A stretch of 64,000 bases of DNA. Origin: Liolophura sinensis. Lineage: Eukaryota; Mollusca; Polyplacophora; Chitonida; Chitonidae. A model generated the notes under the pieces. The model searched no databases. It saw only the letters and a list, made by a program, of their open reading frames with translations, and was not told where the DNA came from. A program made the translations under genes and the position numbers. Location of the stretch: assembly GCF_032854445.1 (NCBI RefSeq), contig NC_088296.1, forward strand, positions 9,954,706 through 10,018,705. The letters are read 5' to 3'. Below, in pieces: positions 15,428-64,000 of this stretch (its first letter is position 1; every line of letters starts with the position of its first letter).

Positions 15428-15506
15428 ATGGAATCTCTGAGGCTTCCAAGACGCTGGGGACGAATTCTAATTCCACTGGTCATTCTGACGGCCACATGTA
15501 TTTCTG
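15428..15506 (+). CDS. Receptor 1 exon 1: signal peptide
   Basis: The exon encodes 26 residues: a basic start with PRRWGR, a hydrophobic core [10 protein letters not shown] and a likely cleavage site near the exon end. It ends in phase 1 at a GTGAGT donor. Near-copies with the same 79-base length lie at 42608 and 47527. Confidence 0.85.
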
Positions 15507-18500
15507 GTGAGTTAAATCAAAATTGGAAATGTTTGAGCTAAGACAGGAGAAACAAATTATATCAGCTGTATAGAGTATATGTTTTTTTAGTTTTTGCCCT
15601 CAGCTGAGCAACTCGTACACTTCTACAGTGACTTTAGCAGCTACATATATGTTGTCACGCCGCACACACAGAGACAACCAGTTAGTCCTGTATGATTAGT
15701 TTTGAGGTACCAGGCAAACCAGCAGATCAAGGTGAGGCTGGAATCGAACAAAACTACCTCAATGATTAGGGGAAAGTTGTCTTTCAGAAAAACCTGTTCT
15801 GTGAACGTGAATATCCCAGGCCCGTACACTTAAGCTATGAAAATGTAGTTTACATTAAATCAATAATTTTTCTGTCATGAATTTACCAGGTCTATTTAGG
15901 TTTGCTCAAAATCAAGTCTCGTACGTGGGAAGGTTTGTTGGCGACGTGCAGATAGTCGTGGGTGATAGCGGCCATTCTCACCGCACCTTCCTCGCCCCCG
16001 CGGGCAGCGCGGTTTTCTTCCCGCGAGTTCCGCGAGGTTGCGCCCCTTTCTTAAAACCGCGCCCTTCGCAGGGGTGAGGAAGGTGAGGTCAAAAATGGAC
16101 GGCATCAGCCACTATACGTAACATACCTTTGTCACAAAGTATATAGAACCCTCTGGTGGGATTTAAATATAAAAGTAAATAATAAATGCAAGTAAAGCTG
16201 GGCCAAGGCACATGTCTTCACTGTTATGTTTCATGTATCATGAGTGCTGCGTCAGGCGCAAGGCTTGTCTTAAGTGAGCATTTTTCTGGGGTGAACTTGG
16301 CCTGAAGTTAAGGTTTGTCCCAGCTTAAGCTTTCTCAAGTTAAAGTTTGTTTAGAGTTATTGCTTGCTCCAGGTTTAAGGTTTGTCTGCGGTTTTAGGCT
16401 TGCTTCATGTTTCAGGTTTGTCAGAGGTTTGACAAGTTAACTTTTGTATTGCGTTATGGTTGTTTGACGTGAAGGTTTGTCTGACTTTAGTATTTGTCTG
16501 AGGTTAAGATTTGTCTAAGGTTAAGGTTTGGCTGAAGTCGGTTTACCCAAACTAGGGTTCTGTTCTAAGTGCTCAGGCTTAAAAAAGTAACAAATTACAA
16601 GCCCCTAGAATGAAACATAAATAGGTAAAATGCAGTGACATTACTTACAATTTATCAAACGTCATTGGTCATTATTGCCGTTGCTATATACTATATAACA
16701 ATTCGGTATTTTCACCTGACTCATCCCTTAGTTCACATGAGCTAATGTTAGTTAGACAAGAGCTGTAGTGTATCTATCTCCACTTATTTTATGACGCAGG
16801 CTGAAAAATTCTCTTCCGCTTAGAGATTTTGCCCAACGTACTACATGGAAGGTTTGATTATATAGCCTTTCACTTGAATGCCCAAAGTTTTGCGAAGAAT
16901 ATTCAAGCTACAGCATTGTTGCCCGATTTTTTGTTGATAATAACACTGTAACAGGCTAAAATGCAACATAGGCTTTGAAGAGGAAAGCGTATAAAAAGGT
17001 CAGCAATGTCGTTGTTTCTGTTACTTACGAAGTTTCCGAGGTGCGAAGTACAAACTGGTTGATGACAAACACCCGTACAACTGCTGTTCATTGCCATTGT
17101 CACAACACTGAGAGCGGGATTCTGTGTCCAAAGTTACTGATTTCCAAAGGGTTACTGATACCTCGTGTGCCCCGTAGTCGGATTTTTTTATTTATTTGAT
17201 AGGTGTTTTATGCCGTACTCAAGAATATTTCACCTATACCACGGCGGCCAGCATTATGGTGGGAAAAAAACCATGCAGAGCACGGGAAACCCACGACCGT
17301 TCGCAGGTTGCTGCAAGACCTTTCCACTTACGGGCGGAGAGGAAGCTAACATGAGCTAGACTTGAAATCACAGCGACCGCATTGGTGTGAGCCTCCTTAT
17401 TACACTGTGCTAGCCCGCTAACTAACTGAGGAGGCCCAATCTTTACCCAATACCCAGGTTGATAATAATTTGATAATAAATTTTGTGATAGTGAATATGA
17501 AAAAAAAAAACAAATGGCTTTCTGCATTGCGCGTCACTGACAGCGTTGGTAACGGTATAGGCCTATGTTCCTATGGGAATACCGCGTAATCATAATAAAA
17601 TTGATCATAATTGCTCTCCATTACTTGATCTGGAACTATAACACCCAGCTAACCATTATAAAGTTAGTAATTATGAATAATGACAATTTGTGTACACTTT
17701 ATTCCGTACAATAACTATCAACGACGTGAACAGAAAATCGAATTTTGCACGGAATATGTTAAGGTTTCCTTGAGATTTAAGGTTTGTCGGAGGTTATGGT
17801 CTGCCTTTGGTTTAAGGTTTGGCCGTGGATATGGTTTGTCTGAGGTTAAGGGGGGTTTTTTGGTTAAGGTTTGCTGGAGTTAAGTTTTGCCTAAGGCTAA
17901 GGTTTTTAATTTTACAGTTAGGGAATGGTTTGTGTGTGAGCTAAACACTTGTCTGCGATTAATGTTTTCTGTCATTAAGGTTTGTCAGAGGCTATGGCTT
18001 GTCTGCGATTATGGTTTGTCTGAAGCTAAGGCTGTCTGAGGTTCAGGTTTGTCTGAAGCTAAGGCAGTCTGATGTTAAGGTTTGTCTGAGGTAAAGGTAT
18101 GTCTGAAGCTATCACAGTTAAGGTTTTGGTCTAAATTCTGAGGCTTAAACTGTAGCAAACTACAGGCACAAACTATAATTAGGTAGGAATGCGGTGATGT
18201 CTCTTGAAAATAACCAGACGTCACTGGTCATTGTCTTCACTCTCTACTGTGTAAAAATTCGGTATTTTCAACTGACTGCCCCAATAGTTCACGTACGCTA
18301 ATGTTAATTAGACTAGAGCTGTAGTGTGGCTGTCACCACCATCTTATGACGCATTCTGAAAAAGTCCCTCCGCTTAGCAGCGAGATTTAGCCCAAGGGTT
18401 AGTTGCAAGCTTTAATTATGACACTTTTTTGACCTGAATAATTTCGAAGAGTATTCAAGCTACAACAATGTTACCTGACGCTTTGTTGATAATGACAATG

Positions 18501-21500
18501 TAACATGTTAAAAATTAAACAGAGACATTTAAGAGGAACGATGATAAAAGGTCAGTAATGTCATTGTTGCACAGAGTAAATAAATTCACAAAGGTTCTGC
18601 AGCACGGGGCAAATATATTAACAAAGACATCACATCGTGGACTTTTTAGCCCCAACGTGTATTTTAGCCCCAACGATATTGTCACGTGCACTTTAACTTA
18701 AACTGCATATGAACCTGAGTCAGTTTTGTTACACTGAGCTGGTTATGGCAGCTGGATTAGATCTTCATCGCCTCATTGCAGTATTGTTGCTCCTCGATGC
18801 TTGGTAACATCGGAGAGCGATGTAACAATGTCGTCAAGGGAGATAATAGTACCAAAGAGACTCTCAAGCGACCACATCATGTCACGGTCGCTACAATCTT
18901 AGTTTTATTATCGACTCAAGATATTTTTCCGCCCACTCATGTTGTAATTAAGTCAATCAGGATTCCAGTGCAAGACTAAGCCTCCACGAGCCTGGTCCAG
19001 AAGCACTGTTTTCATGAGATTATTGACTAAATATTACGACAACGCAGCAATAGAGTAATTGTAGGCCAGTGAGGTTTTATGAATTGCACTAAACATCATT
19101 TTTTACTTAACTTACCTTACGCCACAGTTCTCGCATGGGTCATGAAAGTTGGCAACATATAAGCATAACCATGAACAGTTATATTAAAACATAACAGAAG
19201 AAAATAGGTTTTAATCATCATGCTGTAGTCTTCTGTATTGTAACATTGCCTCTACCGCTTAGGTAGAGGCAATCTCCTCACAATGTTTTCATTAGCGCTC
19301 GTTGATCTGGCCAACTGCGGTATGACTTGCATCGCCTCTAGACCTGTATGCTTCTGTATCTGGGGACCAGATTGCTATGCTACCCTACTGGCCAATTCTC
19401 ATCCCACTAGATACAACACATCTGTAATGGTCTAGGTTAGGTCAAACTTTGTAACAATCAGCGGATACAGATCCCAGGTGCATTTCTAGCGGCTGTGAGC
19501 GTATTTTTGACAAGACAAGGAAGTACAAATCACAAAGCCGATGACGGATTTTACCTATCAAGTATAATAAATCTTGCATACACACATAGACAAAGATAGC
19601 ATGTGGATTTTGCTTAAAGTCTGCTAGGATCAATTAAGAAATGGTCAAGTTAACACAATTAAATCATGTAGTAAATGAATAATAAATATTTGTACGATTT
19701 TAGTGATCTAACGTCCTTGAACGTGCAGTCCGCTTGGTTTATTGACTATATGAATTGTATAAACTATTTCCTTTTCTTATTTTCCATTTGTTTGCGTGGA
19801 TTTCCATTATTTCTTGATGTGCGATATAAAGATTGAATTAATTTCTTTTTCTATTTATTTCACAGGTATGGAAGCCTTTTGTGATGGGAAATGTGGAGAA
19901 GGGACATATTGTGGGAGATGGGAGTGCTATTGTAAAGATGGATATGATGCTTTACGAACCTTGCCTACAACCGGTGTGAAATTTTGCTCGCGTAAGTTAT
20001 CATCATACATGGAAAACAGGATTTAATAATGACTCCAGAGTTAGTTGAGAATGGATATAAACTTGTCTGTTTACGTTACCTTTGCAGGTGTACACTCCAA
20101 CCTATTAGGTACTGTTCCAAAATTCGGGGCATACATGAATCCAATATGAATAAACCACAACTCTGACTTTCCTCATATCCATCATAGATAAACAGCATGT
20201 CAGTAGAAATTAGGCATGTAATGAAGAACACGTTTTATTCGTCATTTAATCCATCAAAAGAGTAACAAATGACTGATCAGTAAACTATCACATGCGATCA
20301 TACCAGGTTAACGTCCATGCCATGCAAAACGCCTGCGAAAAAAATGTGCAAACGCCATAGAATTCTAAAAAGTTTTCAGGCAATATACTCCACAAGTCAA
20401 TGGAAAACGTTTGTCTTGTGTAGTAGTTTTAATTTAAAACACATAAGGTTCAACCTGTGTGATCTGTCCTGACCTTTTTATAGGAATGTTCGGCTATTTA
20501 TTTTTTGTCTATTTATTTATTTATTTCATCATTGTTTAACGATGACTTATTCACTCACAAGATAGAGATCAGGTTAAGGAGTGAGGTTCGCCGTGATGGT
20601 CGCCGACCGCTTGTTGTCATCAAGGCCTGACAGGCAGTCAGACGGGGAATCTACAAATTTCCTGACAAAAGGCCGGGTTTGAACTCGCGCTCTTAACGAC
20701 AATATCACCTGATGTTCTGATATATAAGACTTACAGTATATATAGTAAAACCACAAAAGAGACAATAATGAGTCACACCAATGAAAATGCACACAAAGAC
20801 AGGACTGACTACATATGTATAACGTTGTCACAGTGGACTCTTCAGCTTCTAATGAAGTCCTTTCCTCATATTTCGAGGACATGTTGCAAGCCAAGCCTGT
20901 CCAATAGGCCTACAGCATGAATACGCCACTTCTGCATACGCATGCGCTGTAGGATATTTAGCGAGGGAAGAACCGCCATATTGATTTTGGAGCGAAGTCT
21001 TATATAATTGTGCATTAAATGTGAAGACACCACAACATTTTCCATATTCCCATATCATTACAGTCTAATAATTTACTAATTTTCTTTTACGTAATCCTGC
21101 ATTAAGTCTTAATGCTGGAGGCAGATGCGTTCCTGCAATTTTGCTAGTGTAAGCTGGACTTGACCTCACGGCTATCCCATGGGTAATAGGCTCTTGGATC
21201 ATTGATCTTTGGTTGTACGCTGACCATTCAGCCAACAAAACGAGGGTAAACTCAGGGAATGAAACTGGGGTAAACTCAGAAGGGGTCGGGATTCACCGGT
21301 CACACTTAGCAGTTAGACAGGCATCACACCACTGTTGGTTGCTGTTGCTCTAGTTTTACTCTCTGTGATGTAAGATATTACTCAGCAGTATTTCACTTAC
21401 ACGACGGCAGCCGACATATTTGTGGTGGGACGTATTTTAGCATCAAAAACTTGTATGCTAGTGTGATACACGATTTGAATATTGATTTCACTCATTCACC

Positions 21501-24500
21501 CGGAACATCCCTTGCGCTTTGCAACATCATTGAAAACTGCTGACTGCTCTTCTTTGCATGATTCCGTCCTAATTTCGTACTTTAGATACAGTTTTAATTC
21601 TTTGGTGGTTTGTGTTATATGTCGTTTTGGGAATTGGCCTTGTGACCACTGACCCCGAACGTCCTTATTGGTTGATGGCTGGCAAACATACGTCTCTTTC
21701 CACGCATAGATCCTGTGATGTATTATATTATATTTTAATCAAATTTATCGACACGCTGCTATCATTATGCTTTTGATTTATACTGAGCCCCGCCAAGTAG
21801 TTTCTTAGCTCTCTGAGCAGGACGTGGCTTTATACTGCGGTAACTTTCGTTGGTGACGTGAACATCCTCGCCGTGATGTAGCTGGGAGGACAGAGAAGAC
21901 ACGAGACTGGGTTTTTTCATTTGATAGACACTGTTACAAAACTGGGCTCGCTGTTAGGCTAGTGAAGGTACGCCATTGGTACCAATATGTGATCTCTTTT
22001 CGTTTCTGTTGAAACAGCAAAATGTGCGTCTAAAGCCTTGTTGTGTCCTGCCAACACCAATTGTCAAAAGATACGCCTGGAGGGAGACGAAGGCTACGTA
22101 TCCGAGCATCTGTGTGAGTGTTCAAGTGGAATAAGATTGTCACATACAGGACGATGTTGGGGTGAGTCTTCTTTCAGTACTGGTTACAGTAAACGGGTTA
22201 TCGTTATCAAATCATTAAAAGGCGTGAATACTGGGTCAAGATTAGGCCAACTATGTTGTTACCATATTTAGCTTCATTGCAGCAAGGATTCCACATTGCT
22301 TAGAGTTTGAGTGTTGGTTAATTTACCAGGACATAACGATGGGCTTCGTTTCTTGCATGTCATTTATGCCTATCGCTACATCTCACCCCACAAACAACAC
22401 TAACGTCACCAAACGAACTTAAATCTTCCGCGTGTGCAGTTTCGTTCTCGGTTCATAACTGCCTCATAGGAGAGTTTCGGGTTGGGACTGTTATCATCAA
22501 CGATAAAAACAGTCTTACTGTGTCATGTGACTGGTGAAAAATGTTAGGCAACCTTAGTTGACATTAATTTACTGATCACATGAGAGTCTCCTATGTTGTG
22601 GGCTATCGCACACGAGGCTATAGGCATAGTGCCCAAATTTTATTTATGCACTTTCGTTGGAGAGACTATTGACATTGTAGTTTTGTTTTTGACATTAGTT
22701 AGTTTTGTAATACTAGAATTCTATATGTGATTATTTTTTCGTATAATGTTAGGGGTCAGCACGTGGCGCTCTGGCTGTGAGTTTCCTCTACCCCCCCCCC
22801 CCCCCCCCGGTTTTCCCCCGATGTCCCGAGGTAGAAACCCGTTTTCTTCCAACCATAATGATGGTGGCCGTTGTATAACTGAAATATTGTTAAATACTGT
22901 GTAAAACACCAGTCAAATAAATCACTAAACAAAATGCTACATCATAACGACTCAACCCAGAGCAAGGACGAAAAGAAGTAAGCCCACAGACATCAAAATA
23001 AATTTTACCAACTTCAATAAGTTTTTGTACGGAACCGCGGAAAGGACACTTTTTTATTTCTTTTTATGTCGCCATTGGATAAAAAGGAGAATAAAACACT
23101 TATTCTGCAAAACGTGGGAGAAATTGGCTGACTGGCTACCAAGTCGGGGTAAATTAAGTGATAGTAAAGTGTATCTTTTTATTATCTTTTTATCACCTGG
23201 AAAAAGAGACAATTCATGTACTAAAATAAGTCCGTGCGATTATTTTCACAGGCGAATTAATTTCTGCGTCTTTTAATAGCTAAATAGTCAAATTTCCATC
23301 CTTTTTTCTGGAGAAAATATGAAAAAAAGAAGAGAATATGACCCTTTCGAAGAGATGGAATTCAAAATTGCGAATATCGCGAGGACGGACAATTCACTCG
23401 AAGTTGCCAATTTGTGGAAAGCTCTTTCAGATATGGCAAATCACTAGCATTGGAAGCGTCACGCGATATTTTGTGACGTCAAAACACTTGTCAGCTTTTG
23501 ATTATTAGTGTTGCTTTCTGTGGTTATTTAAGTGTTCAACATGAAAAAGAAGGAAACATAAAAATGATGCCAAAATCAGAAGAAAGAGCGTGAAAACTCA
23601 TTATCAAATACGGTCTTTATTCTTATTATTGTTTTTTTTTTTTCGTTTTTTTTTCTTTCAGCTAAAAAAAATATTTGAGAACATTTTGTATGGTGGATAT
23701 TTGGAATTACCTCATTGTATATATCATCTTCAGGTAATAATGTTCTATAAAGCTGAGAGGCATGTCTTTTTATTTGAATGTGAGTTTGCTGTTTATATCA
23801 CACCGCATGCATTTAATATCAATTCTGACAATACTTAGGAATGTATTAAAAATTTTAAAAATCAGGCCGAACTTATTTGCTTGCTGAAAATACCAATTCC
23901 TATTGCAAATATATATTTATCAAACATGTGTTACATCCCCATTGATAATATCATCACGCAGACAATATATTCCAAGGAGTGGTCCCTCTTTGTCAAGTGT
24001 GTTTTTATCTTTAAAGAAAGATCGACAACAATACTGACGACCACATTGACCGCTAATTTTTCCAGCTCTTTCATCTGAACTTTATGTATTTGTCATGTTT
24101 TCTCCAGCTTCAAAGCTGTTAATCCAAAAAGGCAGTCATAGAGTTTTGTTGGAGAGTTACCAATACTTACATGTTGGACAGTGGTCTGCAGTAAGATGTC
24201 AGGGCCAGCTGGCAACAAAACTGACAGACATTGCGTGAGATTTTATTGCATAAAATTTCCTCCGCGAAGCCAGACTTATTACGAAAATGTCTACACTTCA
24301 CATGCGCTATTAATCTCAAACATAGTTCGGTTGGTTAGCGCGCTAGCGCAGCGTAATGACCCACGAGCCTCTGACCAATGCGGTCGCCGTGAGTTCAGGT
24401 CCAGCTCATGCTGGCTTCTGGGAAGGTCTGACAGCAACCTGCGGATGGTCGTGGGTTTCCACCGGGCTATGCACGGTTTCCTCTCACCATAATGCTGGCC

Positions 24501-27500
24501 GCCGTCGTATAAGTGAAATATTCTTAAGTACGGCATAAAACACCGATCAATAAATAAATGAATGAAACATAGTTGGTCATTTTGGCTAAAACTTTTGAGG
24601 GGGTATTTAAATTTTCTCGTAAAATTTCATGGTCGACCACGTACATTGAATGTTGGAAACGCGACTGAGTTTTGTACAGATGCTACAAGAGAGCTCTTAA
24701 TGGTGTGACGTGACAAAACATGACAAAATGGAGCCACTAAATGATTGGCATTCCTTTAACTTCGTAGACATTAAACATTTTTAGAACAACTCTGGGAAAC
24801 TTTCAGAAGTAATTGAAATTTAGGAGTTGATTTCATGTTCACTTAAAATAATTCCCCTGTTGGTAATTAGACGTTGTTTAAAGTGATATACCGAGGGTAG
24901 TTTAATCTTCAATCCCCACAGGCGTTACAGCAGATACATGTGAAGGGAGGTGTGGATACGAGACGTCATGTGTACCGGGAAGGCACTGTATATGTCAGGA
25001 GGGATGGTATGGTCCACTTACACAACCAGGAGTCCCTGAGCTGTTTTGTCTGCGTAAGTTAACGTTACAATAAGGTTAGTGCCATTATAGCACTATTTTA
25101 CAATATAAAGGTGAGATGTACCTCAGAGATTAATGTATAGCCTGAACAATGTAATTGCAAAACAAGATGTAAAACACGTGTAAAATTGTCATGGCCGGTA
25201 AACTTTGTTACGTACATGCTTTAGTTTTGTGCCATCACAGGGGCAAAGTACATTTTAATCTCTTGTTGATAAATAGGAATGTGTGGGTCTGGTGGGCATA
25301 ATTGTCTTGCCAACACCACATGCACAGCGCTGCATTTTGACAGGAGGGAAGTAAACGTGTGTGATTGTTCTGCTGGCGCAAGACGATCATCTACAGGGCA
25401 ATGTTTAGGTGAGTATTTCGACATATCCCATTGCTTTATCTGTGATGGTACACAGGCCAGCTTTATCTACAAGACAAGTTTGGCCTACAATCGGGATCGT
25501 AACTCTGAAAAGTTACTATCGCCTTACAACCACTGTGTAAACAGCGTAATTTATTTTCACAGTCGATTGTAAAGTGAATTCCAGAATCGGTTGTAGCTGC
25601 TGTATGACCCTTGGGACAAGCGGGCCCAGATTGCGGCTTTTAGTCAAAGGATTGTCAAGCACCTGGCAAACCGGCCAATCCGGTTTCTCCCACCCATGAA
25701 CCTAATTTCAGACAAGAGTTGATAAAATGAGGGGGTCACATTATGTAGAGGATAATCTTACTTTCTCTGATTTTTGTTCGATGTATCGTTTATGGATTTG
25801 GCACAGACAAGTTTAGAAAGACAACCCAGGATACTTTTATGCTCAATTACAGGACATTAGAAGGCATACCGGTTCATCTCTATGAATTTTGTATTTTGAC
25901 AGCTGGTAAATTAAATGTCTGCCCTCAGTGAAATATCCAGTCAATAAAGTCTGAAGAATGTTTCACTAGACAACAATTATATCGCAACAATTTTATGACG
26001 AATAATTGAATCCAAATATGTATTTGCCTATAGCAATTAAAGAAAATGTAAGCACAATAATTAATTTAATAATCAAATTTGAAGATTTTATAAATTTTAC
26101 ATGGTTATTCTAGTGTGAGATAGCTGGTCTGTAGGTTTTTTTTTCTATTTTTAAAACTTTACCAAAATTGAATAGCTGATATAGCAATGATTATATAGAG
26201 GTAAAGGCATCTGCACAGAAAACCTTTGTTTAAATTTACTATTAGTTTAAATTTCTATTCACATGCCTGGATCCTCATGTTGGGCCCTTATCGTTATACT
26301 GGGATCTTTATCATCCTGATGTTGGTATCTTTATAATCCTGATGCTGGGATATGTATACCGATACTGGGATCTTTGTCTTCCTTATGTATCTTTCGTTAT
26401 ACTCAGATCTTTATCATCCTAATGCTGGGGCTTTAATACTGATGCTGGGGTCTTTATACTGATGCTGGGGCCTTTATACTGATGCTGGGGTCTTTATACT
26501 GACGCTGGGGCCTTTATACTGATGCTGGGGCCTTTATACTGATGCTGGGGTCTTTATACTGATGCTGGGGTCTTTATACTGATGCTGAAATATGTATACT
26601 GATACTGGGATCTTTGTCTTTTTTATGTATCTATCCTTATACTGAGATCTTTATCATCGTCATGCTGGGGCCTTTATACTGATGCTGGGGTCTTTATACT
26701 GATGCTGGGGCCTTTATACTGATGCTGGGGTCTTTATACTGACGCTGGGACCTTTATACTGATGCTGGGGTCTTTATACTGATGCTGGGGTCTTTATACT
26801 GATGCTGAAATATGTATACTGATACTGGGATCTTTGTCTTCCTTATGTATCTATCCTCATTCTGAGATCTTTATCATCGTGATGCTGGGGTCTTTATACT
26901 GATGCTGGGGCCTTTATACTGATGCTGGGGTCTTTATACTGATGCTGGAGGCTTTACACTGATGCTGGGGTTTTTATACTGATGCTGGAATATGTATACT
27001 GATACTGGGATCTTTATCTCCCTTATGTATCTATCCTCATTCTGAGATCTTTATCATCCTGATGCTGGGGTCTTTATACCGATGCTGGGGCCTTTATACT
27101 GATGCTGGGGTCTGTATACTGATACTGGGGTCTTTATATTGATGCTGGGGCCTTTATACTGATGTTGGGGTCTTTATACTGATACTGGGGTCTTTATACT
27201 GATGCTGGGGTCTTTATACTGATGATGGAGGCTTTACACTGATGCTGGGGTCTTTATACTGATACTGGAATATGTGTACTGATACTGGGACCTTTATCTT
27301 CCTTATGTATCTATCCTTATACTGAGATCTTTAAAATCCTAATGCTGGGGCCTTTATACTGATGCTGGGGTATTTATACTGATGCTGGGGTCTTTATACT
27401 GATACTGGGGTCTTTATACTGATGCTGGGGTCTTTATACTGATGCTGGGGTCTTTATACTGATGCTGGTGTCTTTATACTGATGCTGAAATATGTATACT

Positions 27501-30500: not shown

Positions 30501-33500
30501 ATGCTGGGGTATTTATACTGATACTGAGGCCTTTATACTGATGCTGGAGCCTTTATACTGATGCTGGGGTATTTATACTGATACTGAGGCCTTTATACTG
30601 ATGCTGGAATATGTATACTGATACTGAGATCTTTATCATCCTGATGCTGGTGTCTTTATATTGATGCTGGGGTCTTTATATTGATGCTGGGGTCTTTATA
30701 TTGATGCTGGGGCCTTTATACTGATGCTGCGGCCTTTATACTGATGCTGGGGTATTTATACTGATGCTGGGGTCTTTACACTGATGCTGGAATATGTGTA
30801 CTGATTTTGAGATCTTTATCTTCCTGATGCAGAGATCTTTATCCTGATATTGGGATTTTACATCCTGATGTAGAGAACGTTACATCATGATACAAGGATA
30901 TTTATTATCCTGATACCGGGATCTTTATCCTGATACTGCCGTATTTATTATCTTAACACTTGGATTTTTATCATGCCTATGCAGAGATCTTTATCCTGAT
31001 ACTGAGATCTTTATCTTTCTAATGTAGAGACCTTTACCCTAATACTGGTATCTTTACATTCTGATGCTGGCATATTTATCATCTGGATGTTGTTATCTTT
31101 ATCATCCCGTGCCGGGATTATTATCATTCTAATGCTGTTGCCTGTATCATCCTCATGCATGGGCCTTCATTATTATCCCACAAGGTGCAGGTCATACTCA
31201 AGTGTTCAAGGCGTTTGCCTATGAATCACCAGGACATTCGAGGCGCACGTCAAAACCTTCTTACGAAAGCAATTTTCCTTCCACCAATGTGGTGTGCATG
31301 TCTATACGACACAGGTGGGATAGCAAGCCGGCAACCTGCCATAACTCAATGGTTTACCCACGGCACTGGTATTACCCACACATAATTTAAGTTGATCAGC
31401 ATTACAGAAGTGAAAGATTCTTGAGTCTAGCATTAATTGTAGCATCAACCTAATGAAGAAATATTATTAAACCCATGTACCACAGAGCCTAAAACAGTGT
31501 AATTGACAAGGTGCTGAATGTCTGATGAGTCACAGCAAAAGCAAAGCAAAAATTACTTGGGTTATATTTAAAGTATGCATCCATTATTTAGCCGTATCTA
31601 GTTTTATGTTTTTTACGTGGTCTTCAGATATTGACGAATGTGTCGAAAAGTGGCGGATTTGTGGTAACAACTCTATATGCGAAAATACAGAAGGCCACTA
31701 CACATGCGCCTGTACAAAAGGATATAGTAAGAAAAACGGTGAGAAGTTGAGATGCAATCAAGGTAAGTTAATCTCTCAGCCACAGTACAATGGTGGTGTG
31801 GTGACTTTTATATGCTGAGTGACTTGAGAATAAAGGTCTTAGAGCAACCTGCGGATGGTCGTGGTTTTCCTACCAGAATAATGGTGGCCGCTGTCGTATA
31901 AGTTAAGTATTCTTGAGCACAGCATAAACTACCAGTTAAATAAAAATATATACATTCCACAGTTTGATATACACAGTTTTACGTCATACATGGGAAAGTT
32001 TTTCAGTAACTACGGTTGTTTAGCACAGACATTCTGGTTGGCTCTGCAAAGAAAGCAGACCATGGTTGTATGTTGCAAAACTTTATGTGCATAGCGTTAA
32101 AATACAGTCAAATAAATAAATAAATAAACACTGTACCGACATTGAGATATCGTTGTGTGCCACTGGATGTTGTCAGATACTAGTACGTTCAACCATATGG
32201 ATTTAACCTTGGATGTAAGACGAACCGCTCGATCTATAGGAGCGTGTAAAGATCTACTATTTACGCATTCACATGAGCAGTTAGAATAAAACCCTGACGG
32301 GGGTAAATTGATACGAGGCCCTGTTTCATCGGTTTCGAGTGACTATTTACCAGCTATCACACTGTCGTCGCTGCTCTGGTCGTACTCTGTGTGCTGTACG
32401 TCTTTAATTATATTATACTGATACGGGTCAACCAGTCGTTGCAACTTCCTCTTTTAAGGCCTTAGGTGTGACCTGACCCATTAATGACCCTGGATCTACC
32501 GCCCCAACGAAGCGGGCATTCTCAAACTGAGCTATCGGGGCCGGTGTTTACTGAAGAAACAAGAATATGAAAACACTATGATGTTCTGTAAGAAATAATT
32601 ATCTACGTAGATTAATCAATTTCCACGTATGTTTACACTTGTCATACAGATATCAACGAGTGTACCGAAACTCCAAACATATGTGGTAAAAACTCTATTT
32701 GTACAAACACGGAGGGTAGCTACATGTGCGCGTGTGCAGAGGGATACAGACAGAGAGAGGATGAAGCCGTTGGATGCAGTCAGGGTAAGGGAATATAATA
32801 TATATACAAGCGCGGAAGAAAACGACAGATTCGTGTGCTGACTTTATTTTTAGATCTATCCTCGATCCCATGGCAATAGATCGCTATATCTCCTGTGGAC
32901 GGTTTAAGAACTCTACAGCTAGTCAGGGATCAAATTTCACTTTAAAAAAATTACATTTTGCTAATCAATGTCGTTAATTTGGCATACTGAGGATTCCGAA
33001 AAGTCGGTTAGAAACCCCTCAGTTTGAAGGTGTACTGCATTTTCTAGTTTAAATATTTACACTTAGCAACAGTATCAAATATCAGAGGGATGTGTCGTTT
33101 TTAAAGAGCCCATACCGGAGACTTATGCTAAAGCAAACAGCGCAAATCACGCGATTTTAGAATACCTCAAATTATTGCTGTTCACAAACTATCGGCCTGG
33201 CCTGTGCACTGGTTTGATTTTTTATCAAAATACACGCATGGGGGAACCCAGCAATCAAAGAATTAAGAGCAGGTTGGCCTGATCTTAGCTACTGAATTTG
33301 GTGTAGGAAAAGATCAAAGTATAGTTGCTGTTCTTGTGTCATTAAGAAAAATGAAGTGACAATTTTCCCCGCGACACGTCTTTCTAGACTAATATTTCCA
33401 CCCAGATGTGTTTTGTACATGAGGACTAACAAAGTGCCACACCTTGGTGAAAGGGCAAGGTTATGTTATAGAAACCAAGTGGGTGGGTGGTAACCACAGT

Positions 33501-42607: not shown

Positions 42608-42686
42608 ATGGAGGTTCAGACCCTTCCAAGACGCTGGGGACAGATTCTGATTCTATTGGTCATTTTAACATTGACATGTGTCCCAG
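42608..42686 (+). pseudogene. Orphan signal-peptide exon between receptors 1 and 2
   Basis: It is an intact 79-base copy of receptor exon 1: ATG, PRRWGQ, hydrophobic core and a proper GTAAGC donor in phase 1. Its 5' flank and the 'ggtttgtctgaggt' array after it (43170-43540) match those of receptor 1. No EGF-like exon follows before the next signal exon at 47527. It could be the remnant of a deleted receptor or an alternative first exon of receptor 2; splice sites permit the latter. Confidence 0.6.
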
Positions 42687-47526: not shown

Positions 47527-50500
47527 ATGGAATTTCAGACGCTCTCAAGACGCTGGGGACAGATTCTGATTCCGTTAATCTTTCTGGCAGCTACACGTAT
47601 CCTAGGTAAGTTGCATTAAGTGTAAAAATGTTTATGCTATGACTATATCTGTGGTTTAATTCGTAATTTTGGGAGCGGACGTGTCCTAGTACTATTCACG
47701 CCAGGAAGCGCTTCCACTCCGACTGTTTCAGTTGTCTCACGTTTATGGAACATCCCCCCATTCTACTGTACCAATAACATTTGCAAGTCTTTACGTTTTA
47801 AACCACGTTGAACGACAGTCAGGTAACTAATATACAGTAATATACTTTTACGTTAGCAACCAGCTGTTTATATTTGCTGAGGCAGTTTTTGTATTAGGCC
47901 AATAATGGTATTAAGGTTTAAGTCTAAATTAACTTTTAACGCACATCTGAAAAGAAAAACCGGGCCCTGGGTTCAGTTTAACGAAACTTTCCACATTCAG
48001 TAAATTGCTGTAGTTGGTAGGGTTTCTTTTTGCCTAAGTCCAAGATCGAGTAACAAACACTACCACCAAAGCATAGCGTTTAGTTATTTTGCTTAAAGGA
48101 TCAGTGTCTACATTTAGATACTGATCCTAATTACAGATATCATAGCTTGTTTAAAAAGTATACTAACAGAAGAACTTCTGAAAATTGAGAAAATGACTTT
48201 AAACCTACTACAAATATTTACTATGATCTCTGGGCGACCGTCCAGTAATGAAACCACCGCTATGATCTCTGGGTGACCGTCCAGTACTGAAACCACCGCT
48301 AGAACGTCTTCTCTCACGATAAAATGCTCTTCTCACACGGCTGGTTGAGCTTCTGGAAATCCCTATAAAAAATGATGTCAGTTTTGAGATGGATTCTAAC
48401 TATACATGCACAAGTAAACATATTGCCGTACCAATTTAAACCAACAGTGGGCGACGATGACATACTTATCTATGACAGACCAGGATTTTATTCTCACTTT
48501 GCATGTAAGCCTTCTTTGCCAGCTCATTCCCCCTCTTCGTTCCGATACAAGCAGGGCAATCAGCAAGTATCTAAAATTCACGGGTATTGCCGAGGCTTGA
48601 ATCCAACACACAACAATGGTTAGAGAGTATATTTATAACGGACCACAATAGAACGTTACCATTTTCTCGCACCTATTTGGCATTTATATAGTTCATAGAG
48701 GCACACGAGGCAATTTTATCCGTGTAACAAGGGATGTAGATCTTTACTCTTATTTCTTTGGGTGAACTGTCTATATGTATACATTAACGTTTGACACATT
48801 CTATATCTATTCCTGTAGATTTAAAAGCTGACAGATGTGGCGGGATGTGTGGATATGCGACTGTATGTACGAATAGAGGGTATTGTAAATGTCAGACAGG
48901 ATTCAAGTTTATTATAACAAAGTCAGGAATCCCTTCGCTTTATTGCGTGCGTAAGTTACATTATAATAATATAGAATCTATACAAGAAATTACCCCGCGG
49001 CACGTCTTCTCCAATTTGCGAAGAATTAATAATATAAGTGCATGCAATACTGTAAATGTCTTTACCAATGTTGTCAAAAGTAAATAACTACTGTTTTGAT
49101 CTTCAGATATTGTAAATAAAAGAAATTAGGCACAGAATTAAACTTTCAAGCTGTGTAGCTGAAAACACGAGATTGAATGAGTGTAGAATCAGTGCAGCTT
49201 GTGTGAAGAGCAGTACACCTTTTTGTCACAAGTACTATAGCCTGTTTTCTTTAACTGATCGCCTATATCCAGCTATCTGTTCAATCAGACATACTTTCGT
49301 CAGTGACACGTTACACCACACGCCGTACAGATTCATTGCCTCGGGTGACATGTAGATATTTCTTTCACAATACTTTACACCTCAGAGGATAAGACTAAAC
49401 TCTGCATAGTAACAAAGCCTACACTACCGTCTCCGCGAATAGACTACACTGTGTTTTTATAACAAAATTTACCTCGAACTTTGAAAACTCTGTCGTGAGA
49501 TCACAAGGGATAAAATTAATTTCATTTATTAAGTTTATATTATACTAAAACTTGAAAGCAATTTCACATTTGACACTGTGAGAACGTGGTTTAAATTAGA
49601 GCCACTCACAACTTCGGTAACTGAGGTGGTTCCCCGTCAAAATAGAGTGGAATGCGTCCATTTTCTAGCATTCCATTGTTTATAAATAATTGAAACCTCG
49701 GGGGCAACGACTTTTTGAAGTCGAAAACAGAAGTTTAGAGAGTTTACAATTCCGGATTTGGACAAGTATTCTAACTGTATTTTCCTTGCATTGATATGAT
49801 AGAGCTCGTCGCGTTACGTGTCACTGATTAAGGCAATTTTGATAGTGAGTGTGAGTGATCGTGCAGAGAGCTGAATATAGGTGACATATTAAAGAGACGG
49901 ACTACAGAGCTTAGAACCATGTTGGTGGGAAAATGTATTGCATTTTTGTCGTGACACAGAAACATGTGGGAATGAAGGGGATGAGTGCCCTGACAACACC
50001 ACTTGCATATGGCTTGCTTTCACTATGGGTCCAAAGGAAAACGTGTGTGATTGCTCATATGGCGCAAGAAAGGCAGATAGTGGACAATGTCTCGGCAAGT
50101 CGGACTTTATATTACTTATATCTTATAGTTTTCAAGGAACCTCGCTGGATCTTTTAACTTGCGGCTCTCTATATTTTCTGTCAATGCTATAGGGGAAATA
50201 AGAAGACTCATCACGTATTTGGGGCTAAATATCTCACTAAATCATCATACCAAAAAGGCTGTCACTTGATGTTGTCGCGTCTGCGTATATGCTCGTCTGC
50301 AGACATTGACACGTATCTTTTGCTGCCTTCTTCAATTGTCTAAAATTAAAATTGCTCAATTGTGGCGAGACCAAAAAGGCTGTCACTTGATGTTGTCGCG
50401 TCTGCGTATATGCTCGTCTGCAGACATTGACACGTATCTTTTGCTGCCTTCTTCAATTGTCTAAAATTAAAATTGCTCAATTGTGGCGAGAGTTTACCAC

Positions 50501-53500
50501 AGTCTACCACAAGCTTTTTGCATAAACAGTTTTCTGTATAACTAAGATGGACGCTGTGTGTTTGTATAAACTGCTCACAATGAGATGATGCATTTAGTTG
50601 ACTCTGGAATAAACGTGTAACTCTTAAGTTGTCCTTTTTGTTCTATACGAACCAGCACATTTAAACAGTTGTCAGATGTGATTAACCACTAAAGGCGCAC
50701 AATCTCAATACTATGTATTCCTGCTTCATAATTTTGAATAGGACGAGGTGTACAGTTATTGTTTTATCACCGTCTATAGAGATCGCAGGTCTTAAATCAA
50801 CGATACAACATCTTGTAAACAATCCCAGCTGCACAAGAGAAACAAAACACCACCGGTGTCCATTCTCAAGTATCTTTTTATCAGGTCTGCAAACCTCTTG
50901 TGAGGGGTAAACTGTGTGAAGAAATGTCATGTAACCTCTCTACACCCATGTGGTTCTGAATATCATCTGAGTGTGTACAGTGGATTGCCATAGTTTTTTT
51001 TTTAAGTCCTTCGTTCACAAACCAGCGAAAACACATTTACTGAACTTAGGAGCGCGGTCAGAGGGGCATCTACCTGTTGAGCCCTTGGTGATTTTAGCGT
51101 AATTTTAAAAAAAGTTCATGTCAGATAGACAGGTTAGATGCAATAGTAAATGTTTTGTGTAAAATATACGTAGATTTGACCATATTCTGCTCATCCTTTA
51201 CGTGTGCCATACAGATATTGACGAGTGTACCGAAAATCAAATCATATGCGGTAACAACTCCGTTTGTACAAACACATTGGGCGACTACACATGCGCGTGT
51301 GCGGAGGGATATAGGCAGAGAAAGGCTGATGAGGTCGGGTGCAATCTGGGTAAGTAAATATAAAACAACAGGGGTAGAAATGATAGCCATTGGCGGTTAT
51401 CCGTAGATTTGTCCACATCAGCAGTGCAATATTGCTTCGGTCCTTAATCAGCCATTTATACCATCCAGTGTGTCATCATGTCTACGGTGCTGACTCACTA
51501 AAGCGCCATGTCGGAGACTTGGTCCTATCTCAATGTAATGACTGTCGTGGTTAGACAGATAGGATTACATGAACAGGGAAGTAATATTGTATCACCACTG
51601 CCTCCAGATAGCACCGCGTCATAGGTAATTGGATAAAATGTTATATACAGTTAATGAAATGAATTTATTATTTTGAAATTTACATATTCCTTTCTGTTTA
51701 CTGATTTTGTTGAGAGATAGAGGTACAGATTTCATAGTTTGATGAGTGTGGTTGGAACAAACTAAAAATCAACCACAAATAAGGCATGGGATAGTTCACG
51801 TTTTACTGAAGGAATAGGCAGGTTAATAGTGTATGAGTTATGTAATACACGTATCTACGTAGATTTGACCATATCCTGCTGATCGTTTACGTGTGCCATA
51901 CAGATATTGACGAGTGTATCGAAAATCAAACCATATGCGGTAACAACTCTGTTTGTACAAACATGGTGGGCAATTATACATGCGCGTGTGCGGAGGGATA
52001 TATGCAGAGAAACGGTGAAGAAGTGGGATGCAGTCTGGGTAAGTAAATATAAAACATCAGGGGTAGAAATGATAGCCACTGGCGGTTGTCCGTAGATCTG
52101 TCCACATCAGCAGTGCAATATTGCTTCGGTCCTTAATCAGCCATTTATACCATCCAGTGTGTCATCATGTTTATGATGCCACCTCACTAAAGCAAGATTT
52201 TCGAAGGCTGGGTCCTAACTCAGTTACAGTGTAATGACTGTGGTGACAAAATAAGATTAAATGAACGCGGAAGCCACGTGGTATCACCACCGTCTCTAGA
52301 TAGTTCCGCAACATTTATAGCTCTCGGACAAAATATTCTACGCAGATAAAAAAAATTAAAAAAAAACATAATTATTAGGAAATTTACATATTCCTTTCTG
52401 TTTACTGATTTTGTTGAGAGATAGAGGTACAGATTTCATAGTTTGACGAGTATGGTTGGAACAAACTAAAAATCAACCACAAATAAGGCATGGGATAGTT
52501 CACGTTTTACTGAAGGAATAGGCAGGTTAACAGTGTATGAGACATGCATAATACACATATCTACGTAGATTTGACAAAATAATATATACAGTTAATAAAT
52601 ATAATAATAATAATAATGATAATAAAAATAATAATATATGTATCTACGTATATTTAATCATATTCCGCCTATGTTTTAAATGTGCCATGCAGATATTGAT
52701 GAGTGTACAGGAAATCCAGAGATATGTGGTAACAATTCTGTTTGTACAAACACGGAGGGCAGCTACATGTGTGCGTGTGCAGAGGGATACAGACAAAGAG
52801 AGGGTGAAGAGCTTGGTTGCATCAGAAGTAAGTACCGTAAATGTTAATCGTTGTGAGTTCAAGTCCAACTCATGCTGGCTTCCTCCCCGGCCGTAAGTGG
52901 AAAGGTCTGCCAGCAGCATGCGGATGGTCGTGGGTTTCCCCCGGGGTCTGCCCGGTTTTCTCCCACCATAATGCTGGCCGTCGTTATATAAGTGAAATAT
53001 TCTTGAGTACGGCGTAAAACACCAATCACATAAATAAATAAATTAATGTAAATGCTAAACACGAGTTTTCAACAGTTTTCGAGCGCACGGCAACAAGAAA
53101 CTTTTGCCCTAGTAGGGAGTTTGACCCGTAAGAAACGAATAAAATATGTTTTTAATTTACAGCATGAACATTGATTGATGGATTTGTTGGTAGGAGAGTG
53201 GATTTAAGATTTTCTTTGGCTTTGCTTTTGTTATTACCGGAGAATTCTCTCCCATTTATTCCAGTTAAATGTCTCATGGCAACCAGTCGGCGATTCACCA
53301 GTGGTTTGATCACAGCCTTAAATCATCAGATTTCTCTGGTACCTTAGACGGTGCGGTGATTTTTGTCCGTCCTGTGTCTGGTTTCTTCCATCCATAAATC
53401 TGTCGACTGTTTATATATGCTATTAAAGTATAACTAAGACGTACGGCATAGAGAGCAAAGCCAGAACAGCGAAGATGGTACGATAGGTGGCAAATAGTCA

Positions 53501-54863
53501 CACGTAACCGTGAAATACAGCCTCATGTAAATTTACCTGAGTAGTCTTGTGTACCCCAGTGAAACAGATGAGAAAACAGTAGGATGTAAATTCCAATGGG
53601 AGTTTAAATACGGTTGTGTTCAGCAATCACTGAGATTCTTATGCACTGCGTTGTTGTTGTTTACTACGTTTCAGTCATAACAGCGTCAACTGTATCTCCA
53701 GCCGGGGATTCCTCAGCGTTGACGGTCGGTCTGGCAGTAGGTATAGGAGGAGTGGTTCCTCTCGTCGTGGTCGTCCTAGCTGTTATTGTTTTCCGGTAAG
53801 CAAGGGGATTGTACGCAGTGGCAACTATTGTTGAAATCAAAATTTGAAATTCGATTTTAAAGCTCAAAAGGTGTTTTGCTAAATTTGAACCGCAGTTTGT
53901 CCGTTACACATCCTTCTGTAATCTGTCAGTTGTTCTTTCTTAATCTTTGCTGTTGAGGCCATCAGTCGTATAGTAATATGTAGGTATACTGTCTTCCTAA
54001 AACTTTTCTTTTGTTTCAGCACTGTGCCAATAATTTTACGTTTCCACTTGCAAAAATTTCTTCAGAAATTATATTTAAACCAAAATTAATGCCCATACAT
54101 TTTGAATTGTAGGGCAAGAAATAGTTCGAGGGGAGATGGTAGAGAAGATACAGGGTTGGAAAGGCAGGGGAAACATTTTGACGTCATAGCTTACGAAAAC
54201 GTCACTGATCAATCTGTACAACAACAGCGCGTTGCTAATTCAACATATACATTACTTCCGGATGAGCTGGGTTCAAGCACGCAGTTGCGATCCGGCACGG
54301 ACGCCCGCTACGAGGAAGTTGACCTACCGCCACAGGTAGAATGGAGTAATGATCCACAGAGTTTGTATAGCTTAGCAGGAAATTTCGACCAGAAGCCTAA
54401 CCCGAGCCAATCCACGTACAATGTTTTGTCCCAACCTCATGTGAAACCTTCCACTGCTGCTACTGTCAGCATCCCAGAGAATTATAATACTCTTTATGAC
54501 ATGCATGCAGAAAATAAAGCCAAACAGCTGCATGAAGAGAAAAGCCAGGGTTCAGAAACTTACCGGAGCGAATCCACATACAATGTTTTGTCCAAACCTC
54601 GAGTAAAACCTTCCACTGCTGCTGCCAACACTCCAGACAATTATAACACCCTTTATGATCTCAATTTAAAACCGACCAATGAAAGTCCAAATGACCTTGA
54701 GTCCGGACAGACCGGATACGGAAATCCACATGGGAACGATGACGTCCAATATGACACCACATACAGTTCTGTGAAACAAGGTGAAGACAACTGCGTACTA
54801 CAGCCAAGTAATGAACGGGAAGGGGGAAGTGAATATGATGAACTAAAAGTGCAGAAAGTTTAA
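47527..54863 (+). CDS. Receptor 2: EGF-like/cbEGF single-pass receptor with tyrosine-rich tail (8 exons)
   Basis: Exons: 47527-47605, 48819-48950, 49960-50094, 51215-51349, 51904-52038, 52693-52827, 53675-53795, 54113-54863. They sum to 1623 bases, giving 540 residues plus stop. Layout: signal peptide (1-26), EGF-like type A (27-70), type B (71-115), three cbEGF modules (116-250) each starting DIDEC, linker and helix (about 265-290), tail (291-540). It is paralogous to receptor 1 in every exon but has one A-B pair, not two. The tail has IAYENV, STYTLL, RYEEV, two YNVL...YNTLYD modules, QYDTTYSSV and EYDEL; the NPxY of receptor 1 is NSTY here. The intron after exon 3 starts with GCAAGT, a GC donor. 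Expected role: surface receptor signalling through SH2-type partners; ligand unknown. Confidence 0.85.
48221..48298. repeat. 39-base tandem duplication in receptor 2 intron 1
   Basis: Two adjacent copies of a 39-base unit with 'ctatgatctctgggcgaccg' differ at a few positions. The rest of the intron (47606-48818) has no gene that I can support. Confidence 0.8.
50095..50100 (+). promoter_or_regulatory. GC donor splice site of receptor 2 exon 3
   Basis: The paralogous donor in receptor 1 is GTGAGT at 25409. Here the same place reads GCAAGT, the usual form of a GC-AG intron. The phase is preserved, and the full gene model stays in frame only with this junction. Confidence 0.65.
50249..50490. repeat. 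Perfect 121-base tandem duplication in receptor 2 intron 3
   Basis: Bases 50249-50369 and 50370-50490 are identical at every position that I compared. This is either a very recent duplication or an assembly artefact. No coding content. Confidence 0.92.
51122..52850 (+). repeat. Three tandem cbEGF exon units of about 0.7 kb in receptor 2
   Basis: Each unit is exon plus flanking intron. Exon starts 51215, 51904 and 52693 are 689 and 789 bases apart, and the introns share long blocks such as 'gatagaggtacagatttcat' (51716 and 52421) and 'cgtagatttgtccacatc'-type sequence after the exons. The exons arose by unequal exchange of whole units. Confidence 0.85.
52848..53046 (+). mobile_element. SINE, tRNA-derived, nearly complete
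   Basis: It runs from a B-box-like 'gtgagttcaagtccaactc' through 'gtttcccccggggtctgccc' and 'taatgctggccgtcgttata' to 'gagtacggcgtaaaacacca' and an ATAAATAA tail. It starts only about 20 bases after exon 6 of receptor 2, in the plus orientation. Confidence 0.82.
53425..53545 (-). repeat. Dispersed repeat R1, minus orientation
   Basis: It carries a diverged reverse complement of the R1 core, then 'cacacgtaaccgtgaaatac' and 'tgtaaatttacctga'. It lies in intron 6 of receptor 2, in the place matching 35625 in receptor 1. Confidence 0.6.
53675..53795 (+). CDS. Receptor 2 exon 7: transmembrane helix
   Basis: It encodes a Ser-rich linker and a helix with [10 protein letters not shown] then [12 protein letters not shown]. 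Proline replaces a leucine of receptor 1 in mid-helix. It leaves in phase 2 at GTAAGC. Confidence 0.85.
54113..54863 (+). CDS. Receptor 2 exon 8: cytoplasmic tail with tyrosine motifs
   Basis: It encodes 250 residues after a TAG acceptor. Compared with receptor 1 it holds one extra copy of the module STYNVL - x17/18 - YNTLYD - NKAKQ-type spacer. The end, YDELKVQKV, is identical in the two receptors. No enzyme domain is present. Confidence 0.88.
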
Positions 54864-57537: not shown

Positions 57538-57538
<1 letters not shown>

Positions 57539-61540: not shown

Positions 61541-62554
61541 ATGGACAACGGCATTGACTCCACACCCTCAACAGGTGTGGCCTGCTGAACAGTCTTAGTG
61601 TCTATCCTTTTCCCCTTTATACTGTTTTTGCTTTGTGATTTAAGTAAAGGTTACTGTCACAACTTTTTGAATAAATCTGGACCAGTGGCGTGAAACGAGT
61701 TCAGTGTTCGTAGATGTCCCATTTTCAAAGCTTAGTCGGTTCGTGGCGCCTTAGTGATTTCCTGGAGAACGTTGCCGGTTCACTCCTGGCATTCCTGTTT
61801 ACTATTCCTATGAATTTGACTAGTATGCCTTAAGCAACAACCAAATGAATAAATAACTGTGTTTTGTATCGCAGTCAGTTTGTCAGTCAACCGAACAATC
61901 TAAGCTGTCATACTAGGTCAGGTTCATATGCAGTCTGTCATTTTGCTTATAGATTTAACCTAAAGCATAGCAGCTTTTACACCAGGGAAACACCTCTGAG
62001 CCTGGTATCTCTTTACCCAATTTCTGTTACGTTTCTCGTCTACTCGGATAATGTTATTCATACACACTCTTGACATATTAAAATTTAATTGAATTCAAAA
62101 TAAAAAAACGGGAAAGTGTTGTGCGAAAGGAAAAACTGACCAGTATCAGTTTGTCACAGATTGCATCATACAACCCGCATAAAGTCCTTCAATATATGTC
62201 CCACTGATAGTGTATATACATAACCATATAAGGAAATATCTGTTTGACTCATGCCAGCTCTATTTTGTTTGTCCAACCAGGAAGTATGTGCATGAAAACC
62301 CAGCTCCTTAAAAAAATCCGCACGTAAATAGCCGGGCAGAGCGTTTAACTAGGCCGACCTGATGTCAACAGGCCTGCTCACAAACAGAGAACCGCATGGC
62401 CGTTTAACATGTAAAATCTAACTTCCTTTATAAATATACTTTATCGCGTAATAGCTGAACAACAGCTAAAGCGAGCGTAAGGATCGGCACATGCGCTGTA
62501 TGGAGTATGATCACGTCATTTAATATAATCTGGGATACAAACCAGATTTAATTA

Positions 62555-63735: not shown

Positions 63736-63749
63736 TGCTCTACAATTAT

Positions 63750-63855
63750 TATCCTTTTTATTTATTTATTTATTTATTTGGTGTTTTACACCATACCTAA
63801 GAATATTTCACTTATACGATGGCAGCCAGCATTATGATGGGAGGAAAACCGGGAC
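63750..63855 (-). mobile_element. SINE 3' fragment next to receptor 3 exon
   Basis: TTTATTTA units lead into 'ggtgttttacaccatacc', 'cacttatacgatggcagcca' and 'gcattatgatgggaggaaaa'. It ends about 30 bases before the exon acceptor. Confidence 0.8.
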
Positions 63856-63888
63856 TATCTGTTTTATCTTTTCTGTATTTTATAATAG

Positions 63889-64000
63889 GCTTGCAAGCTG
63901 ACAACTGTAATGGGGAGTGTGGAGAGGGAACGTCTTGCTCGTGGAGGCGTTGTCAATGTAAGGAAGGCTTTAGCCGCCGCAGAAAAGCACCTGGATCTAA
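63889..64000 (+). CDS. Receptor 3, first EGF-like (type A) exon, cut by window end
   Basis: After an AATAG acceptor the frame is open in phase 1 and reads like the type A modules of receptors 1 and 2: Cys x3 Cys-Gly x4 Cys x4 Cys x Cys, then Gly-Phe. Spacing matches exon 2 of receptor 1. Five of six cysteines are visible. The rest of the gene lies outside. Its signal exon is uncertain: the candidate at 60621 has the right phase but a frameshift, and no first-class signal exon is seen. Confidence 0.7.

Follow-up and report, generated by a model that had tools for sequence, protein, structure and literature searches.

The 64,000-nucleotide stretch of the Liolophura sinensis genome analyzed here (the window; C2:9954706-10018705, C2 being the scaffold that carries it) contains two genes, designated gene 1 and gene 2, which are members of a chiton family of type I single-pass receptors that is large and has expanded locally. 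Their products combine six-cysteine modules of two kinds (A and B), calcium-binding epidermal growth factor-like (cbEGF) modules, one transmembrane (TM) segment, and a tyrosine-rich tail. The interpretation that we favor, and to which we give about an even chance, is that these are variable surface receptors with a conserved tail that docks SH2 and PTB domains, probably through immunoreceptor tyrosine-based inhibitory motifs (ITIMs) and an SHP-2-like partner, and that they are probably immune; the phosphorylation, partners, ligands, cell type, and function of the receptors are what we infer. The assembly was first named Liolophura japonica in the available part of its report (PMC11068029), and the species was later corrected to L. 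sinensis (PMC12441733). The mitochondrial COX1 frame stays open when translated with the invertebrate code. The initial annotation of the window, made from the letters alone, had guessed at a lophotrochozoan, which was right, the animal being a chiton.

Both gene models were rebuilt from splice sites, and a comparison of these sites across paralogous loci of the same genome (L-numbers below) was used in place of RNA evidence. Gene 1 was found to run from a signal peptide through A1, B1, A2, and B2 modules, three cbEGF exons, and a TM exon to the tail, whereas gene 2 has a single A-B pair in place of the A-B-A-B arrangement and otherwise the same order. The exon sums of 1827 and 1623 nucleotides proposed initially were reproduced exactly, and neither spliced model contained internal stops on translation. 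The proposed module order, the single hydrophobic exon (located between the cbEGF exons and the tail in both genes), and the enzyme-free tail rich in tyrosine (12 residues in gene 1 and 15 in gene 2) were likewise recovered. All A, B, and cbEGF exons of the two genes are of phase 1-1, so a single exon could be skipped or added with the frame unharmed. Other loci yielded 98 homologues of the module and TM exons, of which 79 have AG exactly where expected together with an in-phase donor, 11 fit only after shifting of the start, and 8, including the TM exons of three gene 3-type copies, have no such model. The exons in the window are as follows.

15428..15506, + strand: gene 1 exon 1, start codon and signal peptide (open reading frame, then GTGAGT donor; copies at 42608, 72% identical, and 47527, 64%)
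19866..19991, + strand: gene 1 A1 module exon (AG/GT, phase 1-1; six Cys, invariant across 11 aligned A modules)
22018..22161, + strand: gene 1 B1 module exon (AG/GT, phase 1-1; six Cys, invariant across 13 aligned B modules)
24922..25053, + strand: gene 1 A2 module exon (splice sites, A alignment; paralogues at C2:10158507 and C2:10518114)
25277..25408, + strand: gene 1 B2 module exon (splice sites, B alignment)
31628..31762, + strand: gene 1 cbEGF exon 1 (cbEGF pattern, splice sites; Pfam EGF_CA in the spliced protein)
32650..32784, + strand: gene 1 cbEGF exon 2 (cbEGF pattern, splice sites, Pfam EGF_CA)
35257..35391, + strand: gene 1 cbEGF exon 3, probably crippled (acceptor ACAA, not AG)
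36232..36355, + strand: gene 1 TM exon (hydropathy 3.07 across 19 residues; other loci have related TM exons)
37147..37831, + strand: gene 1 tail exon, 227 amino acids, 12 Tyr, stop TAA (own-genome matches; Tyr contexts)
42608..42686, + strand: orphan signal-peptide exon copy (72% identical to gene 1 exon 1; GTAAGC donor)
47527..47605, + strand: gene 2 exon 1, start codon and signal peptide (spliced model)
48819..48950, + strand: gene 2 A module exon (splice sites; outpaces introns in divergence from L014 and L015)
49960..50094, + strand: gene 2 B module exon, GC donor (GCAAGT in 4/4 gene 2-type copies examined)
51215..51349, + strand: gene 2 cbEGF exon 1 (cbEGF pattern, spliced model, Pfam)
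51904..52038, + strand: gene 2 cbEGF exon 2 (cbEGF pattern, spliced model, Pfam)
52693..52827, + strand: gene 2 cbEGF exon 3 (cbEGF pattern, spliced model, Pfam)
53675..53795, + strand: gene 2 TM exon (hydropathy, spliced model)
54113..54863, + strand: gene 2 tail exon, 249 amino acids, 15 Tyr (internal duplication of a YNVL...YNTLY unit)
63889..64000, + strand: gene 3 A module exon, cut by the window end (AG acceptor at 63887-63888; rest of the gene in L016)

The claim of two complete genes with three cbEGF modules each held as regards both models but not as regards the third cbEGF exon of gene 1. This exon is probably crippled: a pattern search of the window and the examined loci gave 48 cbEGF exons, of which 47 have AG and this one does not. 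Gene 1 is still in frame without it (1692 nucleotides), and an in-frame AG was read off the sequence upstream of it. The GC donor after the gene 2 B module is likely real since it recurs in all four copies examined; the automatic donor call for these B exons was wrong, having taken a GT inside the exon. The signal-peptide exon at 42608, downstream of which no module match was found before gene 2, is probably either an alternative first exon of gene 2 or a remnant. Two repeats lie within the introns. A minisatellite of 4.4 kb (26422-30860; 20-base unit, about 220 copies) occupies the greater part of the intron that separates B2 from cbEGF exon 1 in gene 1, and a perfect 121-base tandem duplication (50249-50491) lies in a gene 2 intron about 155 bases past the GC donor of module B.

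The clustering proposed initially was confirmed and proved wider than the window. The gene 1 tail gave 47 matches in its own genome at E<=0.001, and these, together with four fuller intervals from searches with distant tails, merged into 38 loci, 36 of them on C2. By block, 19 lie at C2:9.94-10.55 Mb (the core block, within 0.6 Mb), 12 at C2:7.55-8.59 Mb, 5 at C2:13.0-14.5 Mb, and 2 on C4, and three distant tails used as queries gave no loci beyond these 38. A chance origin was excluded by the number of loci and by a match of the gene 1 tail to another place in the genome at 98% identity (E=8.9e-144). The 30 loci examined as DNA, window included, differ in their modules. The core-block copies examined bear A and/or B modules; in L009 the stretch examined begins at the cbEGF exons, with a B match immediately upstream. 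Among twelve later loci, examined mostly for the tail, a B module was found only in L026, L027, and L031. Exons with the cbEGF pattern number one in L019, two in gene 3 types, three in gene 2 types, and, at most, six in L009, where one lacks a good donor. Two inverted recurrences of the gene 2-gene 3 pair lie on C2, at 10.24-10.26 and 10.38-10.40 Mb. Dense clusters of cbEGF exons were also observed at C1:76.7-78.0 Mb and C8:8.80-8.88 Mb, where the tail search gave no match.

Gene 3 had been described as sharing the layout of genes 1 and 2. This was not upheld. The ATG of its apparent start (63820) lies inside a repeat found at nine further places in the window over at least 75 bases; a start of the A exon at 63889 is more likely, and no intact signal or first exon was found upstream of this exon. 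The tail of gene 3, read in L016, has only 4 tyrosines in 182 residues, which places the gene outside the ten-tyrosine layout; most motifs are lost, while LYSNHKI..NKAKQ is retained. Gene 3 as a repeat of the gene 1 and 2 layout was therefore rejected. A different relative, L019, has a tail that stops after 81 to 83 residues. The repeat itself is dispersed, about 90 bases long, and present on both strands, occurring at 63757-63853, at the nine other places in the window, and in many of the examined loci.

The tails were compared in an alignment of 23 sequences, from which L008 (stop), L010 (frameshift), L017 and L018 (cut ends), L027 and L031 (near copies), and L030 (broken) were omitted. Twenty of these tails have 6 to 15 tyrosines, and three (L016, L019, and L023) have 3 or 4. 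When 10 tails with identities down to 30% were aligned, six columns were invariant, namely three tyrosines and the L, T, and L of YxxL/YNTL motifs. Tyrosine was also the gene 1 tail residue best kept in five distant paralogues (0.71 on average across 7 sites, compared to 0.52 for isoleucine and 0.49 for leucine); a column-based version of this test gave p=4e-5, a value that leans toward its result since the columns were chosen by tyrosine content. The ratio of nonsynonymous to synonymous rates (dN/dS) was 0.20 to 0.86 in 15 pairs of gene 1-type tails, indicating constraint.

The motifs around these tyrosines, named according to the usual consensus rules, comprise ITIM-like sites (IAYENI, VRYEEV, and STYNVL), TxYxxV, YxN (the Grb2-type SH2 site), and, in some copies, NPxY. 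Gene 1 has NPTY, as do several of its close copies, and gene 2 has NSTY. Their frequency was compared to composition shuffles in 16 of the 23 tails, seven near copies being omitted. Yxx[ILVM] was enriched in 9 of 16 at p<0.05, including gene 1 (7 observed and 1.86 expected, p=0.0012) and gene 2 (9 and 2.18, p=0.0002). The ITIM [ILVS]xYxx[ILV] exceeded chance in four of the 16 tails, among them gene 1 (3 and 0.44, p=0.008) and gene 2 (5 and 0.55, p=0.0002), so that both encode single-pass receptors with ITIMs beyond chance, as in the ITIM-bearing inhibitory class. The inhibitory-type motifs suggested initially are thus supported. The tyrosines of YNVL...YNTL are 21 residues apart in gene 1, a spacing nearer that of paired ITIMs than that of activation motifs (ITAMs), and the unit is present twice in gene 2. 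The tail gave no match to PDB sequences up to E 10. Membership in the receptor tyrosine phosphatases was rejected as no Y_phosphatase match was found in a Pfam scan of both spliced proteins and the tail ends in a stop, and membership in the receptor tyrosine kinases was rejected as the same scan gave no kinase match.

A candidate partner for such a tail was found in the same genome. At C9:22.228-22.233 Mb there are SH2 pieces of two domains, with a protein tyrosine phosphatase exon about 3 kb downstream. These pieces read nearly identically to a compact, SHP-2-type tandem SH2 copy at C7:35.497 Mb (L033, C7:35496400-35498700), the SH2 pair of which has PTPN11 as its best PDB match (5.6e-77). 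The first SH2 of the C7 copy is split over two frames, and from its sequence the copy is probably a broken retrocopy of the C9 gene. Taken together, the C9 exons and the C7 match to PTPN11 make it likely that a phosphatase gene of the SHP-2/Corkscrew type is present. Separately, at least 151 tyrosine phosphatase exon matches (150 of 397 candidates scored) were observed on C7, C15, and C3, many in tandem blocks, which suggests that receptor phosphatases have undergone a large expansion in this chiton.

For the ectodomain, the cbEGF modules were readily identified. Pfam EGF_CA scored 59.4 bits for gene 1 (scanned without the third cbEGF) and 84.3 bits for gene 2, above the cut-off of 27, and PDB sequences matched by the gene 2 ectodomain were led by NELL2, followed by CD97 (9mqr, 1.2e-26), and included Notch and fibrillin. 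The A module follows C-x3-C-x5-C-x4/5-C-x-C-x17-C in most of 11 aligned copies, and the B module (13 copies) has a C3-C4 loop that is highly variable in length and sequence within a constant frame. Neither reached a Pfam cut-off: gene 3-type modules gave EB at 16.1 (cut-off, 24.3) and EGF_3 at 18.4 (cut-off, 28.5), gene 2 gave only EGF_Mua-3 at E=0.42, and gene 1 gave no match. The gene 2 A+B stretch matched no PDB sequence up to E 5. AlphaFold models made from window sequences only (3 rows each) had a mean predicted local distance difference test score of 74.6 for A and 67.3 for B, and Foldseek returned nothing for either at E<=0.001. For A, it returned eight weak matches, all at E>5, including HHIP, uromodulin, and CD97 chains, which we take to carry EGF units; for B, 30 weak and apparently unrelated matches were returned. 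The cysteine pattern and this weak structural hint suggest that the A and B modules are probably EGF-like.

For some gene pairs, the comparison showed faster change in the outer modules than in the tail. Gene 2 and L014 differ at 24 of 267 A+B positions, compared to 131 of 4487 in introns (p=4e-6) and 14 of 751 in the tail; between gene 2 and L015, the counts are 27 of 267, 115 of 4454 (p=1.4e-8), and 15 of 751. This amounts to 9 to 10% in A/B exons and 2.6 to 2.9% in introns. The A exon also outpaced introns between L005 and L007 (24/129 versus 22/239, p=0.013). In gene 1 and L005, the tails are alike (dN 0.027, dS 0.065), whereas the modules are far apart (A2, dN 0.68 and dS 0.64; B2, dN 0.43 and dS 1.12), from which it was deduced that front and tail have separate histories, by exchange or conversion.

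Under the favored reading, the A and B modules, compact and with variable loops, would be the likely ligand-contact surface, held up by a cbEGF stalk that calcium stiffens. Once ligand had clustered the receptors, Src-family kinases would be able to phosphorylate the tail, which is long and probably disordered. A main output would then be that the SHP-2 homologue is recruited via a pair of YxxL sites with a spacing of 21 residues, with an inhibitory or tuning effect. Adaptors and engulfment partners could provide secondary outputs, with YxN sites serving Grb2-type SH2 domains. Copies differ from one another in A/B modules and cbEGF number, with some sharing near-identical tails, and relatives with tyrosine-poor or short tails may act as decoys or co-receptors. 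The likeliest use would be the tuning of hemocyte responses, as microbes, parasites, or altered self are recognized by hemocytes or at mucosal surfaces. A more specific and rather unlikely version holds that this is a chiton-specific or mollusc-wide diversified system similar in design to the vertebrate KIR/LILR clusters but built from EGF modules, in which A/B modules, subject to diversifying selection, recombine with a small number of homogenized polytyrosine tails and the tyrosine-poor relatives (gene 3 type and 81-residue-tail type) are signal-poor partners or decoys in the cluster.

Several observations weigh against the favored reading. The proposal that these receptors are fast-changing stood only in part, other pairs being weaker or null. 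L014 and L015 differ at 11 of 267 A+B positions (p=0.26), B exons were not faster between L005 and L007 (p=0.68), L005 and L006 (p=0.47), or L006 and L007 (p=0.49), and gene 2 and L013 have 0 of 267 differences. As gene 2 is common to them, the two strongest pairs may represent one event. Since counts are small and the ratio of nonsynonymous to synonymous changes did not differ significantly between A/B and tail in any of 7 pairs (p 0.24 to 0.77), dN/dS above 1 is not claimed for A/B. In the tail, ITIMs were not enriched in 12 of 16 sequences, YxN was enriched in 1 and not in the other 15, and NPxY, missing from most distant tails, is lost with several other tyrosine sites in distant copies. 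No acidic or basic residue was present in the TM cores examined, so nothing points to the pairing with adaptors that activating receptors show. Stop codons occur in 11 of the 47 tail matches, some perhaps being true tail ends. Some close copies may be uncollapsed haplotypes: L013, the closest copy of gene 2, is 98.5% identical over 6.3 kb (42 of 4629 intron bases differ after masking), near the heterozygosity of 1.24% given for this genome in the available part of its report (PMC11068029).

The best surviving alternative is that these are engulfment receptors like Draper, MEGF10, and CED-1, which would engulf corpses or microbes by way of NPxY (PTB adaptors) and YxxL (Syk/Shark type) with SHP-2 as a brake. 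As far as described in the text available, these share the EGF-type ectodomain, the single TM segment, and a tyrosine tail in which Draper and MEGF10 signal through NPxY plus an ITAM; the binding of Corkscrew by Draper-II goes through an ITIM (PMC8092387). The NPTY of gene 1 and of several of its close copies and the several YxxL sites agree with this. However, no EMI domain was among the Pfam matches of either spliced protein (E<=0.1), the conserved YxxL pair exceeds the usual short spacing of ITAMs, NPxY is not retained in most of the distant copies, and the chiton genes form a multigene cluster with a cbEGF stalk. Membership in the Draper/MEGF10 group was rejected on the absence of EMI and the YxxL spacing, and an engulfment role is considered unlikely.

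Self/non-self or gamete recognition, or cell adhesion, in which variable outer modules would mark individuals, species, or cell types, is regarded as decidedly unlikely. It is favored by Botryllus allorecognition, for which the accessible account describes clustered FcoR receptors with a single TM segment and a long tail with ITIM, hemITAM, or YxxI/L/V motifs (PMC12065747). These have Ig and sushi ectodomains in that account, whereas the chiton proteins have EGF-type and six-cysteine modules and 12 to 15 tyrosines (genes 1 and 2). The matches to NELL2, CD97, Notch, and fibrillin also fit adhesion, as many adhesion and guidance proteins contain cbEGF arrays. Because adult chitons live singly without fusing, a pressure for allorecognition is unclear. 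The weakest alternative, a mostly decaying or assembly-inflated cluster that has no special function and few working genes, the rest being inverted duplications of recent date, haplotypes left uncollapsed, and pseudogenes, accounts for the broken loci (at least L008 with a stop, L010 with a frameshift, and L030 with several breaks, along with two broken cbEGF exons in L005), the stops in tail matches, the lost gene 1 acceptor, and L013 but is very unlikely given the constrained tails, the mostly intact splice sites, tyrosines conserved at 30 to 42% identity, and intron differences of 2.6 to 13.5% among the other copies compared, after masking of poorly aligned columns.

Variable docking receptors therefore remain the preferred reading, and by analogy they may work like Botryllus FcoR, the Biomphalaria resistance clusters, and, less closely, Draper/MEGF10; membership in none is claimed. 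Biomphalaria Grctm6 (Guadeloupe Resistance Complex) and PTC2 are, in the portions of the reports available, molluscan single-pass clusters with a strongly variable ectodomain and a link to parasite resistance, Grctm6 having a TM/cytosolic part more conserved than its ectodomain (PMC5310918, PMC7494358). Compared by description only, theirs have no known domains besides TM in these portions, whereas cbEGF and tyrosine motifs are clear in the chiton. The SudRes1 MEGF/GBD receptor tyrosine phosphatases of Biomphalaria sudanica are likewise clustered, EGF-type, single-pass, and linked to parasite resistance and tyrosine signaling, but as partly accessible they have phosphatase and galactose-binding domains (PMC12297450), neither of which was found in the chiton proteins by Pfam scan. 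No 7TM match was found by Pfam either. EGF-TM7 proteins (CD97/EMR2) also have EGF units that include cbEGFs, but they are seven-pass G protein-coupled receptors; with one hydrophobic exon only between the cbEGF exons and the tyrosine tail, membership was rejected.

The initial annotation linked the layout to no named family, and in agreement with this no Pfam or PDB family spans all of it. None with the whole layout was found in the literature searched, most subscription papers being outside its scope, and a narrow search (chiton, immune receptor, EGF) gave no papers on chiton immune receptors; the family may exist elsewhere as uncharacterized proteins. Clustered variable receptors with immunoreceptor-type tails are a known kind, and the EGF-type ectodomains are what is new here. 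If the reading is true, it would extend the Botryllus/Hydractinia pattern, as given in the available text (PMC12065747), to a mollusc and to another domain class, and the family would supply directly testable tail peptides and partners (SHP-2, Grb2-type, and PTB adaptors).

Upstream of gene 1, at 2000-13800 of the window, two head-to-tail copies of a non-long-terminal-repeat retroelement were observed, 95 to 98% identical over four aligned pieces. These tandem copies (about 2 to 14 kb) were set aside as outside the receptor system; their frames read as zinc-knuckle, endonuclease, and reverse transcriptase.

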